Positions 25,739 to 49,028 of a stretch of DNA of 64,000 bases are shown piece by piece. A model generated the notes under the pieces. The model was not told the origin of the DNA. It did no database searches and was given only the letters and a program-made list of their open reading frames with translations. The position numbers and the translations under genes were made by a program. The stretch covers positions 56,270-120,269 of the IMG/VR virus record IMGVR_UViG_3300023278_002686; one strand, written 5' to 3'. Source of the DNA: a virus. The first letter of the stretch is position 1, and every line of letters begins with the position of its first letter.

Positions 25739-26032
25739 ATGAAAATATTAAATTTTAATGAAAAAAGCATAAATGATTACACTTTTTATGAAATTTCGTT
25801 TGATGAAGATGACGATGACAGAGGAGAGCATGTTATGTATGTTATGGTTGACAAACAAAAAAATGGGTATATGATAGAAGCTGATTTAGATGGAGATTGG
25901 GATTCACCGTGGAGAGATGGAGATATTGAAGCATCCACATTTCGAAACTTTGAAAGAAGTCAAGGTGTGAATAAAATTCGTAAAAATGATATACCTAAAG
26001 ACATTTTAAAAGCGTTATTAGCGGAAGTATAA
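25739..26032 (+). CDS. small virion-region protein, MKILNFNE leader (97 aa)
   Basis: Leader MKILNFNEKS parallels 23557. Very acidic body (FDEDDDDRGEHVMYVMVDKQ, EADLDGDWDSPWRDGDIEAS) of likely beta structure. AAAGGAG ribosome site. Unknown function. Confidence 0.5.
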   Translation: MKILNFNEKSINDYTFYEISFDEDDDDRGEHVMYVMVDKQKNGYMIEADLDGDWDSPWRDGDIEASTFRNFERSQGVNKIRKNDIPKDILKALLAEV

Positions 26033-26081
26033 ATAATAGAATATATGAATGAAAATTTATACACTTTAAAGGAGTTAAATA

Positions 26082-26231
26082 ATGAAAATATTAGAAGATC
26101 TTAAAATCTATGACACATTTGAACTCTTTAAAAAACATCAACCTAAGAGTAAGAATAAGGAATATGGACCTTTTCAAGTAGAAGGTAAGATCTTTCAATA
26201 TGTATATCAAGTATATGACGCATTTAAATAA
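26082..26231 (+). CDS. small virion-region protein, MKILED leader (49 aa)
   Basis: Starts MKILEDLKIYD after AAGGAG (7-nt spacing) and ends YQVYDAFK. Basic middle (KKHQPKSKNKEYGPF). Shortest member of the leader class; the leader is about an eighth of its length, which supports the leader having a function of its own. Confidence 0.5.
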   Translation: MKILEDLKIYDTFELFKKHQPKSKNKEYGPFQVEGKIFQYVYQVYDAFK

Positions 26232-26246
26232 CTATATTAACAGATA
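26228..26246 (+). promoter_or_regulatory. TATA-like late-promoter motif
   Basis: ACTATATTAACAG right after the 26082 gene and 13 nt before AAGGAG of the 26259 gene; same word as at other virion genes. Confidence 0.35.
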
Positions 26247-26258
26247 AGGAGATATTAA

Positions 26259-26684
26259 GTGAAATTAAATTATAAGAAAAGTGAAAGTATATTATCTTCT
26301 TTTTTAAAGTCAAAAGGAAGTATAGATAGATTTTTAGAAACAATGATATCAGGTGATTTTAGTATTGATAATGTATATCCTCCTGATGTTGATCCTCCAG
26401 GAAGAAAACCTGAGGAAGATAAAGAGTTAGAACCTTCAAAGGAATTAGATGATTTTATTCCAGATCCTCAATATGAATCTATAGAAGATGAAGAAATTGT
26501 AGATAATGTATTATTAGAGAATAATGAAAATGCACGTAATATAATAGAACAAAAAAGTAAATTAGCAAGTCAATCTGGAACAATAACTACACATCATTCT
26601 TTTGAGAAAAATGAAGAAAAAGAAGAAATGGTAGATAATATAGAAGCTCCTAAAATGAATTCTAAATATTTACGTGGTATGTAA
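26259..26684 (+). CDS. acidic, low-complexity virion-region protein (141 aa)
   Basis: GTG start with AAGGAG upstream. N-terminal helix (LNYKKSESILSSFLKSKGSIDRFLETM) then Pro/Asp/Glu-rich disordered stretches (PPDVDPPGRKPEEDKELEPSK) and a C-terminal MNSKYLRGM. Resembles scaffolding or assembly factors in composition only. Confidence 0.4.
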   Translation: MKLNYKKSESILSSFLKSKGSIDRFLETMISGDFSIDNVYPPDVDPPGRKPEEDKELEPSKELDDFIPDPQYESIEDEEIVDNVLLENNENARNIIEQKSKLASQSGTITTHHSFEKNEEKEEMVDNIEAPKMNSKYLRGM

Positions 26685-45685: not shown

Positions 45686-45714
45686 TTGACAATTGTATGA
45701 CTATGTTATATAAT
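45686..45714 (+). promoter_or_regulatory. host-like promoter of the tRNA operon
   Basis: Consensus TTGACA (45686-45691), 17 nt, consensus TATAAT (45709-45714). Transcription would begin about 45721, which is the first base of the first structured leader element. Confidence 0.85.
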
Positions 45715-45720
45715 ATAATT

Positions 45721-45773
45721 AAGATGCTAACAGCAATAAAAAATTGTCTTCAAAACAAAAAATAATGCATCTT
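45721..45773 (+). ncRNA. leader RNA element 1 (CUUGU/AAGA-N6-CAGCAA motif, permuted form)
   Basis: AAGATGC (45721-45727) pairs with GCATCTT (45767-45773). The 5' arm runs into TAACAGCAATAAAAAA, then a small TTGT/ACAA hairpin closes the loop; GTT follows the 3' arm. The core AAGA-N6-CAGCAA and CTTGT is shared with element 2 and with both tRNA insertions, but here the arms are joined on the opposite side. It starts at the predicted transcription start. Confidence 0.65.
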
Positions 45774-45778
45774 GTTCT

Positions 45779-45808: not shown

Positions 45809-45869
45809 AAGACACTAACAGCAAAATAAAAAACATTTGAATTTTAATCAAAACCGTTTTATGTGTCTT
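45809..45869 (+). ncRNA. leader RNA element 2 (same motif, permuted form)
   Basis: AAGACAC (45809-45815) pairs with GTGTCTT (45863-45869). Relative to element 1, two pairs change on both sides (T-A to C-G and G-C to A-T), i.e. covariation. The 5' arm continues TAACAGCAAAATAAAAAAC; an inner TTTGA/TCAAA hairpin closes the loop; GTT follows the 3' arm. Followed 12 nt later by the first tRNA. Confidence 0.65.
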
Positions 45870-45881
45870 GTTTTTTAAATT

Positions 45882-45999
45882 AGGGGAATAGCTCAAGGGT
45901 AGAGCAACGTAAAAAACTGAATCTTGTATGAAGATTTGCACAGCAACAAAAAAAAGCATTGTAAGCCGTAGGTTGTGAGTTCGAATCTCACTTCCCCTA
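45882..45999 (+). tRNA. tRNA-Thr(UGU) interrupted by a 46-nt insertion in the anticodon stem
   Basis: Acceptor AGGGGAA/TTCCCCT, D-stem GCTC/GAGC, T-arm GTGAG-TTCGAAT-CTCAC, discriminator A. As encoded, the anticodon arm does not fold. Removing 45910-45955 joins ACG to GC and gives stem ACGGC/GCCGT with loop ATTGTAA, i.e. U33, anticodon TGT and A37: a perfect 72-nt tRNA. No CCA is encoded. The exact restoration of five stem pairs argues that the insertion is removed or was gained recently. Confidence 0.8.
45910..45955 (+). other. 46-nt intron-like insertion between tRNA positions 29 and 30
   Basis: Core GAATCTT-GTATG-AAGATTT hairpin (7 pairs), then GCA, CAGCAAC and eight A. CTG before and CAG after the hairpin can also pair. 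Much too short for a group I intron, and no bulge-helix-bulge is evident at the junctions. Shares its core with 46041-46079 and with both leader elements. Confidence 0.7.
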
Positions 46000-46007
46000 T
46001 TTTCATG

Positions 46008-46119
46008 AGAGATATAGCTCAGTTGGTAGAGCAATTGGATAAACTGAATCTTGTAAAAGATTATAGCAGCAACTAAAAACATGGCCAATGGGTCGTTGGT
46101 TCGAATCCGACTATCTCTC
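46008..46119 (+). tRNA. tRNA(CAU) (Met or Ile2) interrupted by a 39-nt insertion in the anticodon loop
   Basis: Acceptor AGAGATA/TATCTCT, D-arm GCTC/GAGC, anticodon stem ATTGG/CCAAT (perfect), variable GGGTC, T-arm GTTGG-TTCGAAT-CCGAC. The loop has 46 nt instead of 7. Removing 46041-46079 leaves ATCATGG with U33 and anticodon CAT. G37 is unusual for CAU tRNAs. G-1 and C73 are also present (46007/46119), a tRNA-His-like trait, so identity is uncertain. Confidence 0.7.
46041..46079 (+). other. 39-nt intron-like insertion between tRNA positions 33 and 34
   Basis: AAACTG-AATCTT-GTAA-AAGATT-ATAG-CAGCAAC-TAAAAA: same order and spacing as the 46-nt insertion, with a GNRA-type GTAA loop. The insertion point differs by four positions from that in the Thr tRNA and neither matches the usual 37/38 intron site. 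Confidence 0.7.
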
Positions 46120-46128
46120 CTAATTTAT

Positions 46129-46200
46129 AGGGATGTAGCTAAATTGGTAAAGCGGCGGATATTTAGTCCGTGTCTGTTGGTTCGAGTCCAGCTATCCCTA
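46129..46200 (+). tRNA. tRNA, probably Lys(UUU), atypical anticodon loop
   Basis: Acceptor AGGGATG/TATCCCT (one G-U), D-arm GCT/AGC with GG in the loop, T-arm GTTGG-TTCGAGT-CCAGC, discriminator A. The best anticodon arm is GCGGA-TATTTAG-TCCGT, giving TTT at 34-36 but A instead of U at 33. The loop may be mis-set by one base or the tRNA may be decaying. It has no insertion. Confidence 0.6.
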
Positions 46201-46263
46201 TATTTTTCTTTGTTTAAAATGATAAACAAAAACATATCATTTGTAAATAATATTAAACATTAT

Positions 46264-46338
46264 GGATCTGTAGCTCCAATTGGTTAGAGCGCTTGACTCA
46301 TAATCAAGATGTTCTAGGTTCAAGTCCTAGTAGATCCA
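46264..46338 (+). tRNA. tRNA(CAU), Met or Ile2
   Basis: Canonical: acceptor GGATCTG/TAGATCC, D-arm GCTC/GAGC, anticodon arm CTTGA-CTCATAA-TCAAG, variable ATGTT, T-arm CTAGG-TTCAAGT-CCTAG, discriminator A. Elongator Met or lysidine-modified Ile for AUA codons, which would suit the AT-rich codon usage. No CCA encoded. Confidence 0.9.
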
Positions 46339-46343
46339 ATCAT

Positions 46344-46419
46344 GGTGGTTGTAGCTCAATCTGGTTAGAGCACCTGACTGTGAATCAGGAGGTTGCCAGT
46401 TCGAATCTGGTCAATCACC
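46344..46419 (+). tRNA. tRNA-His(GUG)
   Basis: Acceptor GTGGTTG/CAATCAC preceded by G-1 (46344) facing C73 (46419), the tRNA-His identity pair. D-arm GCTC/GAGC, anticodon arm CCTGA-CTGTGAA-TCAGG, variable AGGTT, T-arm GCCAG-TTCGAAT-CTGGT. Confidence 0.92.
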
Positions 46420-46448
46420 CTACATATTAATTAAGGAGGGTTTTTAAT

Positions 46449-47364: not shown

Positions 47365-47581
47365 ATTATTAATTGGAGTTTTATTTTTAATCTTTACTTT
47401 AGCATGTGATAAATATGAGGAAAAAGATAATGAAAAGTATGATATTTATTTTGAAGAAATTCAAAATAATAGATATGGATTATATCGAGGAATTGATTAC
47501 AAATACAAAAAAATACTTTACTTTAATGGATCTGGTGGATGTTTATTTGTAACAGATTTAAAGGAGGAAATTAATGAATAA
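47357..47581 (+). CDS. small lipoprotein-like protein (74 aa)
   Basis: MNKLLIGVLFLIFTLACDKYEEKDNEKY: short signal peptide ending in L-A-C with Asp at +2, then a charged beta-type body. Likely lipidated and in the periplasm. AAGGAGG ribosome site; overlaps the vWA gene by 8 nt. Confidence 0.55.
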   Translation: MNKLLIGVLFLIFTLACDKYEEKDNEKYDIYFEEIQNNRYGLYRGIDYKYKKILYFNGSGGCLFVTDLKEEINE

Positions 47582-49028
47582 ATTTTTAAATTCAATAAAT
47601 ACAATGCATACCGAAAATGGAGCAATTACAAAAGCTTCAACTGGGTCTGCTTTGTATAATTTTTTTGGAAATGGAGCTGCTTTACGTGGTCAAGATGAAG
47701 GACGCATAAGTAGAACTTTCCAAAAAGCATTTGAGGAAGATAGTCTTCTTGCTTTAAAAACTCTTTTCTATATTAGAGATATAAGAGAAGGTCAAGGCGA
47801 AAGACAAATTTTTAAAACTATTTTGGCTTACTTACTACAACATAAGGTAGTAAATACAAGAGAACTTTGTAAGCTAATTCCTGAATATGGTAGATGGGAT
47901 GACTTACTTATTATTTTAGAATCAGATAATAATGATCTTATGGTTCTTAAGGAAGTAATTATAAATCAACTAACTAGCGATGTTGAAACAAAAACACCTT
48001 CTTTACTGGCTAAATGGTTACCTTCAGTAAATACATCTTCTAAAGATACGGTTAAGAAAGCAAGAAACTTATGTAAATTACTTAATATGTCTGAAAAAGA
48101 TTATAGAACTACTTTAGCAGATCTAAGAAAAAAGATTAATATATTAGAAACTCATCTTTCTAATAAAGACTACACTAAAATAGATTATTCTAGAATTCCT
48201 TCTAATGCATCTTTGAAATATCGAAAAGCTTTTTATCGAAACGATGAAGATAGATATCAAACATATCTTTCTCAATTAGAAAAAGGTGAAACTAAAATAA
48301 ATACTGGAACTCTTTATCCTTATGACATAGTTTCTAAAGTGTATAAAGGTGAATATGATAAAACTTTAGAATTAGCATGGAAAAATCTACCTGAAATTGA
48401 AGGTAGTGAAAACTCAATAGTAGTATGTGATACTTCTGCATCTATGAGGGGTAAACCTATTGAAGTAGCTCTTTCTCTTACCATATATATGGCTGAAAGA
48501 TTAAGTAGTAGTTTTAAAGATCACTTTATCACATTTTCAGCTAAACCTCAATTACAAAAAATCGTAGGTAATACACTTCTAGAGAAATTAAATAATCTTA
48601 TTCAGGCTGACTGGGATATGAATACTAATTTTCAAGCTATGTTTGATTTAATTCTTAATAGAGCTATTCAAGAAGGTCTTAAACAAGAAGATTTACCTGA
48701 AAAAATCTATATAATTTCAGATATGGAATTTGATGAGGCTCAAAGAGGTGGTTTTGGTAGACCTTCTTATCAAACTAATTTTGAAGTAATTCAAGATAAG
48801 TATCGAAATGCAGGATACGATATGCCTAAATTAGTATTTTGGAATGTAAATAGTCGTAATGATCAAACTCCCGTAACTATGAAAGATGATTATACGTATT
48901 TAGTCTCAGGATGTTCACCTAAGATCCTAAAGTATGCAGTAGGTTGTAAAGCTCTTAATGGATATGATCTTATGAAAGACGTTCTTAATTCAGATAGATA
49001 TAAACCTGTAGAAAATTTACTTAAATAA
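47574..49028 (+). CDS. TROVE/Ro-like vWA-domain protein (DUF2828-type)
   Basis: 484 aa. N-terminal helical repeat region (SLLALKTLFYIRDIREGQGERQIFKTILAYL...LIPEYGRWDDLLIIL) is the HEAT-like part shared by TROVE/Ro60 and DUF2828 proteins. The C-terminal vWA domain has the MIDAS motif DTSASM, a conserved T (MNTNF) and SDMEFDEA. Ro-type proteins bind misfolded or small RNAs (Y RNA), so its position just after the tRNA and structured-RNA operon is notable. Followed by a terminator. Confidence 0.7.
   Translation: MNKFLNSINTMHTENGAITKASTGSALYNFFGNGAALRGQDEGRISRTFQKAFEEDSLLALKTLFYIRDIREGQGERQIFKTILAYLLQHKVVNTRELCKLIPEYGRWDDLLIILESDNNDLMVLKEVIINQLTSDVETKTPSLLAKWLPSVNTSSKDTVKKARNLCKLLNMSEKDYRTTLADLRKKINILETHLSNKDYTKIDYSRIPSNASLKYRKAFYRNDEDRYQTYLSQLEKGETKINTGTLYPYDIVSKVYKGEYDKTLELAWKNLPEIEGSENSIVVCDTSASMRGKPIEVALSLTIYMAERLSSSFKDHFITFSAKPQLQKIVGNTLLEKLNNLIQADWDMNTNFQAMFDLILNRAIQEGLKQEDLPEKIYIISDMEFDEAQRGGFGRPSYQTNFEVIQDKYRNAGYDMPKLVFWNVNSRNDQTPVTMKDDYTYLVSGCSPKILKYAVGCKALNGYDLMKDVLNSDRYKPVENLLK

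Follow-up and report, generated by a model that had tools for sequence, protein, structure and literature searches.

Two interrupted tRNA genes in one phage operon

What are two short insertions doing in the anticodon arms of phage tRNA genes? The genes lie in the 155,054-base record of a T4-like phage (tail sheath found by PHROG), and unless another record is named the coordinates given here refer to the window, i.e., the whole stretch of 64,000 nucleotides of this record that was analyzed. The first-pass annotation had seen intron-like insertions, starting from the observation that the tRNA at 45882 does not fold as encoded. Indeed, ARAGORN called neither gene on the undeleted window sequence, and the Rfam tRNA model did not match the 45882 gene and matched the 46007 gene at 52.6 bits with the 46-nt anticodon loop already described for it. 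All possible deletions were then enumerated and each was scored with ARAGORN. Removal of exactly 45910–45955, the 46 nt proposed before, was the single best solution and restored a tRNA-Thr(UGU) cloverleaf with a score of 119.9. For the second gene, a 39-nt deletion gave a cloverleaf scoring 118.6 with four equivalent placements, among which the one originally chosen, 46041–46079, is the one that retains the CAU anticodon. The first RNA (45882–45999, plus strand) has the shape of a tRNA-Thr(UGU) in which a hairpin follows position 29 of the anticodon stem, and the second (46007–46120, plus strand) that of a CAU tRNA with a hairpin grafted into the anticodon loop.

Both inserts are on the plus strand and share a core formed by an AATCTT/AAGATT hairpin, CAGCAAC and a run of A, in agreement with the earlier description. 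Insert 1 (45910–45955) begins with an A-rich segment, followed by the arm GAATCTT, the loop GTATG, the arm AAGATTT (from 45931), GCA, CAGCAA (45941–45946) and the A-run. Insert 2 (46041–46079) contains the arm AATCTT (46047–46052), the loop GTAA, the arm AAGATT (46057–46062), ATAG, CAGCAA (46067–46072) and an A-rich end. With 39 and 46 nt and no Rfam intron match they are, as had been pointed out, too small for group I or II introns, which would need a core of at least 200 nt. In the two RNAs the acceptor, D and T arms are intact, and the ends pair as a normal acceptor stem, leaving the CAGCAA stem as an internal hairpin.

Three uninterrupted tRNAs follow on the plus strand in the same operon, as had been reported, and were called by ARAGORN as Lys-UUU (46128–46201), Met-CAU (46263–46339) and His-GUG (46345–46420). 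Another 18 ordinary tRNAs are found elsewhere in the record, including an intact Thr-UGU, which makes a non-translational role for the 45882 RNA plausible. Intact CAU tRNAs also occur elsewhere in the record, and the interrupted copies, being redundant, might be decayed tRNA genes that carry a functionless short repeat. We regard this as extremely unlikely, given the intact arms and the presence of the same module, with fixed geometry, in phages of very different hosts and beside one protein family (see below). The idea of random decay found nowhere else also fails, as such inserts recur in the tRNA anticodon arms of other phages. As a separate observation, between 58751 and 63710 the genes turn to the minus strand and the GC skew reverses, a possible transcription boundary.

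Two short RNAs with the same motif

CAGCAA followed by AAAAA within 0–3 nt occurs four times on the plus strand of the 155-kb record, always between 45731 and 46079, once per insert and once in each of two short hairpin RNAs located upstream; one further match, on the minus strand, lies elsewhere. The first-pass annotation had overlooked the two sites outside the tRNAs. When the fixed stem geometry is considered, the four elements are found inside a single 400-nt stretch of the record. The same scan with 59 permuted motifs gave a mean of 0.5 and a maximum of 2, and the shared parts of the locus are not due to chance.

The first short RNA (A, 45721–45776, plus strand) is formed by AAGATGC (45721–45727), TAA, CAGCAA (45731–45736), an interior, GCATCTT (45767–45773) and GTT, and the second (B, 45809–45872, plus strand) by AAGACAC (45809–45815), TAA, CAGCAA (45819–45824), an interior, GTGTCTT (45863–45869) and GTT. 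Like in Y RNAs, the predicted 5′ and 3′ ends would pair through 7-bp stems (AAGATGC/GCATCTT and AAGACAC/GTGTCTT), and in A this closing stem is part of the minimum free energy (MFE) fold. These transcript ends are supported by a perfect promoter for A alone, a sigma-70-type TTGACA-17-TATAAT (45686–45714, plus strand, 12 of 12 consensus matches) that lies ca. 7 nt upstream of the putative start of the RNA. The interior of B contains a clear mimic of an anticodon arm, the hairpin TTTGA-ATTTTAA-TCAAA with anticodon UUU (Lys). A weaker hairpin with a 7-nt loop, U33 and anticodon UCA (TTGT-CTTCAAA-ACAA) is possible inside A, outside the MFE fold. We discarded a pseudoknot that would pair the loop GUU with the AGC of CAGCAA because of its geometry, as 3 nt cannot span a helix of 7–10 bp.

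A Ro60-like gene downstream

The four RNAs are located 1.45–1.9 kb upstream, and on the same strand, of a gene (47574–49028, plus strand) that codes for a protein of 484 amino acids matching DUF2828, the vWA domain DUF7788 and PHROG 850. Its AlphaFold2 model (pLDDT 82.9) had as top PDB matches the Ro60 of Thermus phage phiLo (9l5y, E = 3.8e-7) and the Rsr of Deinococcus radiodurans (2nvo, E = 4.4e-6), with a modest overall TM-score to Ro60 of 0.54. The MIDAS residues D286, S288, S290, T351 and D383 are conserved in 25 phage relatives. The modelled protein thus has the helical-repeat plus vWA fold and the MIDAS of Ro60 and Rsr, with tRNA-like RNAs nearby, and differs from them in that Pfam places it in DUF2828/DUF7788 and finds no match to TROVE. 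On this structural prediction the protein is Ro60-like, and we predict from the arrangement of the locus that it is the partner of the RNAs in the window.

Recurrence of the module in other phages

Viral contigs and GTDB genomes searched for the exact sequence of the insert returned chance matches only, and searches of IMG/VR with the phage proteins gave few relatives. We scanned IMG/VR for a pattern of CAGCAA plus an A-run that precedes a T arm, setting no condition on structure. This yielded 95 stretches, many of which are tRNAs carrying a comparable insert. After joining the deletions ARAGORN recovered collinear tRNAs, the convincing ones with scores of at least 110 (Arg, Phe, Ile and others). 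Eleven collinear inserts, picked from the window and IMG/VR without any stem criterion, were examined, and in every one the 3′ strand of the hairpin starts exactly 10 nt before CAGCAA (one of them, L093, being a tie between 10 and 11 nt). The same spacing of 10–11 nt between 3′ arm and CAGCAA holds in the Y-type elements. Altogether, stem and CAGCAA also flank more than 100 RNAs of other phages, and the module recurs with fixed geometry in phages that differ widely in host and GC content. The points of insertion into tRNAs vary (29/30, 32/33 and 33/34).

Some of these RNAs are already annotated in isolates. The tRNAs of 114–125 nt of Erwinia phage SNUABM_12 (L113, 1296–1411 and 2944–3068) and Pectobacterium phage CBB (L114, 1224–1337 and 2925–3046) are of the same hairpin-bearing kind, and the A-rich insert has probably misled the annotation of their anticodons (e.g., Phe-aaa, Lys-ttt). 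The CBB RNA at 1224–1337 has CGGCAT where CAGCAA would be expected. A similar insert is present in the tRNA-Val of Aeh1 (122 nt), with CCGCAA replacing CAGCAA, and the tRNA-Thr of phiM7 (123 nt) was checked for the motif and had none. A scan of the T4 tRNA region found no elements; the stable RNAs of T4 known as species 1 and species 2 (L189, 6909–7172) adjoin its tRNAs and are devoid of the CAGCAA-stem module.

Closed-acceptor elements and their likeness to YrlA

Most of the other IMG/VR matches had the arms reversed, i.e., a 3′-type arm, CAGCAA, an interior, a 5′-type arm and then GUU. About 36 unique elements of this type enclose a complete tRNA ordered as anticodon arm, T arm, loop-closed acceptor and D arm (38 were listed, two of which, with interiors above 260 nt, probably contain ordinary tRNAs by chance). 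Many others enclose no tRNA. Four have an anticodon-arm-like hairpin plus a T arm and lack the D and acceptor arms, as half-tRNA mimics (L042 3651 and L088 894, minus strand; L109 927 and L111 1947, plus strand). In three phages a longer element, with an interior of ca. 130–150 nt that is not an obvious tRNA, is found immediately upstream of the Ro gene (L138, at ca. 136653 of G015; L146, at ca. 102507 of G006; L129, at ca. 113367 of BUCT-ZZ01).

The order in the tRNA-enclosing elements is that of YrlA, a Y RNA whose paired 5′ and 3′ ends bind the Ro ortholog and whose interior mimics the D, T and acceptor arms (PMC8394870). YrlA-type RNAs (Rfam RF02553; Chen et al., 2014, cited in PMC7790460 and PMC12282133) also adjoin a Ro60 ortholog, have a stem of paired arms, a tRNA-like interior with T arm, closed acceptor and D arm, and come as several RNAs per locus. 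An element of mycobacteriophage Kingsolomon aligned with the Rfam YrlA model from its first to its last position in the same order (37.9 bits, E = 4e-7 for the small region searched). The best score in the window was 24.7 bits, and none of the phage elements scanned reached the gathering threshold of 69 bits. The RNAs of the window with tRNA form differ from YrlA by their open acceptor ends and by having the stem as an inserted hairpin, and the short phage elements by mimicking an anticodon arm instead of the D/T/acceptor body.

Joining the interior ends of the closed-acceptor genes yields tRNAs with ARAGORN scores of 105–126. We considered that they could be permuted tRNA genes spliced into circles, which fits these scores; the linkage to Ro, the YrlA order and the interiors that are not tRNAs favour Y RNAs. 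The two tRNA-shaped RNAs of the window are better read, from their sequence, as a putative circular permutation of the closed-acceptor Y RNA, in which the acceptor would be open and the hairpin closed. Their two tRNA bodies provide the tRNA-like domain that is expected in at least one RNA of a Y RNA locus. Their 5′ and 3′ ends do not form the Ro-binding stem of a Y RNA; since these ends make an acceptor stem, we describe them as RNAs that would work like Y RNAs and not as canonical members.

Anticodon-arm mimics

Redundant interiors of the short elements were removed by comparing their first 40 letters, which left 93 unique ones that still include some relatives. A hairpin with a 7-nt loop was present in 60 of these 93 (shuffled mean 27, maximum 35), and 30 of the 93 also had U33 and a purine at 37 (shuffled mean 4.3, maximum 9). 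The anticodons found among the mimics include UUU, UUG, UGU, UGA, GUU, GCC, GCU and GAU.

Linkage to the Ro gene

Five protein families were common to all five full genomes bearing elements, and the Ro-like family was one of them. It was present in 16 of 20 element-bearing records compared with 682 of 50,697 phage records overall. A match to PHROG 850 or TROVE was absent in the other four (G004, G008, G012 and G013, with loci L030, L058, L074 and L084), which either have another Ro-like partner or are incomplete records; G013 is 308 kb long. At the IMG/VR loci fetched by the RNA motif, the elements were mostly 50–1000 bp from Ro and on the Ro strand.

The converse prediction was tested on 14 phages picked by their Ro protein alone and then scanned for elements. 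An early loose scan of five genomes had given a weak enrichment versus scrambled motifs, and was superseded by a strict scan with fixed geometry (3′ arm 10–11 nt before CAGCAA, at least 7 bp, at most one G-U, the other arm followed by G). The strict scan found 31 elements in 10 of the 14 phages. Of these elements, 26 (in eight phages) were less than 1.5 kb away from Ro, and all 26 shared its strand. When CAGCAA was replaced by each of its 59 other permutations, the same phages gave a mean total of 2.3 (maximum 6), and of 0.56 (maximum 3) near Ro. The matches are not all independent, as FelixO1 and Michonne are related, and in Aeh1, phiKSUM, a Twort-like phage and V05 the strict scan detected no elements. 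We infer that the elements are phage Y RNAs, because phages selected by Ro carry them near Ro far above scrambled motifs.

Some individual cases deserve mention. Salmonella phage FelixO1 has four unannotated Y-type RNAs among its tRNAs (L172, 9738, 9905, 10359 and 10446), just downstream of the Ro-like gene, one of them with a tRNA-like interior. In Listeria phage CKA15, three extremely abundant noncoding transcripts have been described within 2 kb of an Rsr-like gene and on its strand, and the authors suggested that they are Y RNAs; two underlying false genes account for ~67% of the phage transcripts late in infection (PMC12282133). Its relatives P100, cka14 and cka16 each have exactly three elements, which directly precede the Ro gene (L173, 7662–7928, in P100; L187, record positions 26011–26275, in cka14). 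Three transcripts in one phage and three elements in its relatives, both near an Rsr-like or Ro gene, suggest by analogy that the abundant transcripts of CKA15 are likely to be such elements.

An alternative that would leave Ro out is a regulatory or processing hairpin for another protein, such as a host RNase or an RNA chaperone, the proximity to Ro reflecting only shared tRNA-rich regions. Both Ro genes and elements are indeed found in tRNA clusters, and the elements of the jumbo phage CBB lie at a great distance from Ro. However, elements are often located 50–350 nt from the start or end of Ro, on the same strand, even where tRNAs are few (Campylobacter phage CJLB-7, Staphylococcus phage BE02 and Kingsolomon), the T4 tRNA region is free of them, and the YrlA order agrees with known Ro RNAs, all of which makes this explanation very improbable.

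Introns or docking hairpins

The preferred reading, a Ro60-docking hairpin, has several observations against it. Apart from the four records with no Ro match, the remote elements of CBB, the YrlA scores below threshold, the missing TROVE match and the modest TM-score, the tRNA-shaped RNAs of the window break the textbook topology of Y RNAs, and an intron, too, would be expected to leave perfect anticodon arms when deleted exactly. If the inserts were true miniature introns, they would be excised from the collinear tRNAs and the closed-acceptor genes would give circular tRNAs, as permuted genes do in algae and archaea, the catalyst being the RNA itself or an unknown nuclease plus a ligase. The ARAGORN scores after deletion of the module in collinear genes (100–121), like those of the joined closed-acceptor interiors, fit this, and RNA ligases were found in 13 of the 20 element-bearing records. 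However, their co-occurrence is not consistent: a search for RtcB, RNA_lig_T4_1 and RNA_ligase in the present, possibly incomplete, record found none, although a ligase of the host might serve instead, and the RNA_ligase family was absent from several other element-bearing records. Moreover, many elements enclose no tRNA and have no evident splicing product, the closed-acceptor form is that of a known stable RNA (YrlA), the points of insertion vary, and the linkage to Ro would be left unexplained. The order of the tRNA halves and the interruption of the anticodon arm do resemble the permuted and intron-containing tRNA genes of algae and archaea; the differences are that no ligase was found here and that the first-pass annotation reported no bulge-helix-bulge.

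We consider miniature introns very improbable on these grounds. What the first-pass annotation saw as specific inserts with a conserved core has stood and proved recurrent, and their identity as introns has not, since dozens of phages have Y-RNA-like transcripts whose ends are closed by the identical module, which also adjoins a Ro60-like gene of the same strand and follows the YrlA order where a tRNA is contained in it. Splicing of the RNAs in the window is unlikely. Should the module be excised after all, a CAGCAA hairpin of ca. 40 nt would splice tRNAs and make circular tRNAs or anticodon arms with Ro as a splicing chaperone, a scenario to which we give very little credit.

A probable phage Ro/Y-RNA system

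The inserts are probably docking hairpins for a Ro60-like protein and not introns, and the locus a phage Ro/Y-RNA system with predicted binding to Ro. It would consist of the short Y-type RNAs A and B, the two hairpin-bearing tRNA-like RNAs and the downstream Ro60-like gene. An ordinary YrlA-type RNA makes the docking stem by pairing its 5′ end with its 3′ end, and a loop closes the acceptor stem of its tRNA-like domain. In the tRNA-like RNAs of the window, the acceptor ends would be free, and a small loop would close the docking stem, which would be inserted in the anticodon arm; this is also its position in YrlA-type RNAs. The stem, together with CAGCAA, a sequence that may already be known as a feature of Y RNAs, would hold the RNA on the Ro ring, and the tRNA body or anticodon-arm mimic would engage an enzyme that handles tRNA, i.e., an anticodon nuclease that is decoyed or a tRNA-modifying or decay enzyme, which would be tethered to Ro or kept occupied. 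The unspliced RNA would suffice, with no need of a splicing step.

As to the client, we tentatively prefer an anticodon-nuclease decoy, because the mimics concentrate on anticodon arms and YrlA has already been proposed as a competitive inhibitor of anticodon nuclease in Salmonella (PMC7790460), but this role is doubtful enough that others have to be kept in mind, such as control of the Ro ring or the tethering of a nuclease such as PNPase. The link with anticodon nucleases raised by the first-pass annotation is possible in this form, as a decoy. The repertoire of the mimics (Lys, Gln, Thr, Ser, Asn, Gly, Ile and others) gives an indication of the targets with which phage Ro RNPs come into contact.

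The "intron-containing" phage tRNAs, some of them annotated in the isolates CBB and SNUABM_12, would be reread as tRNA mimics docked on Ro60. The motif of stem, 10 nt and CAGCAA locates Y-type RNAs beside Ro across phages of Salmonella, Listeria, Campylobacter, Enterococcus, Staphylococcus, Klebsiella, Citrobacter, Mycobacterium, cyanobacteria and others. If this reading is true, phages would possess a family of RNAs shaped in imitation of tRNAs and anticodon arms, and the role of Ro60 for viruses would become directly testable in isolates.
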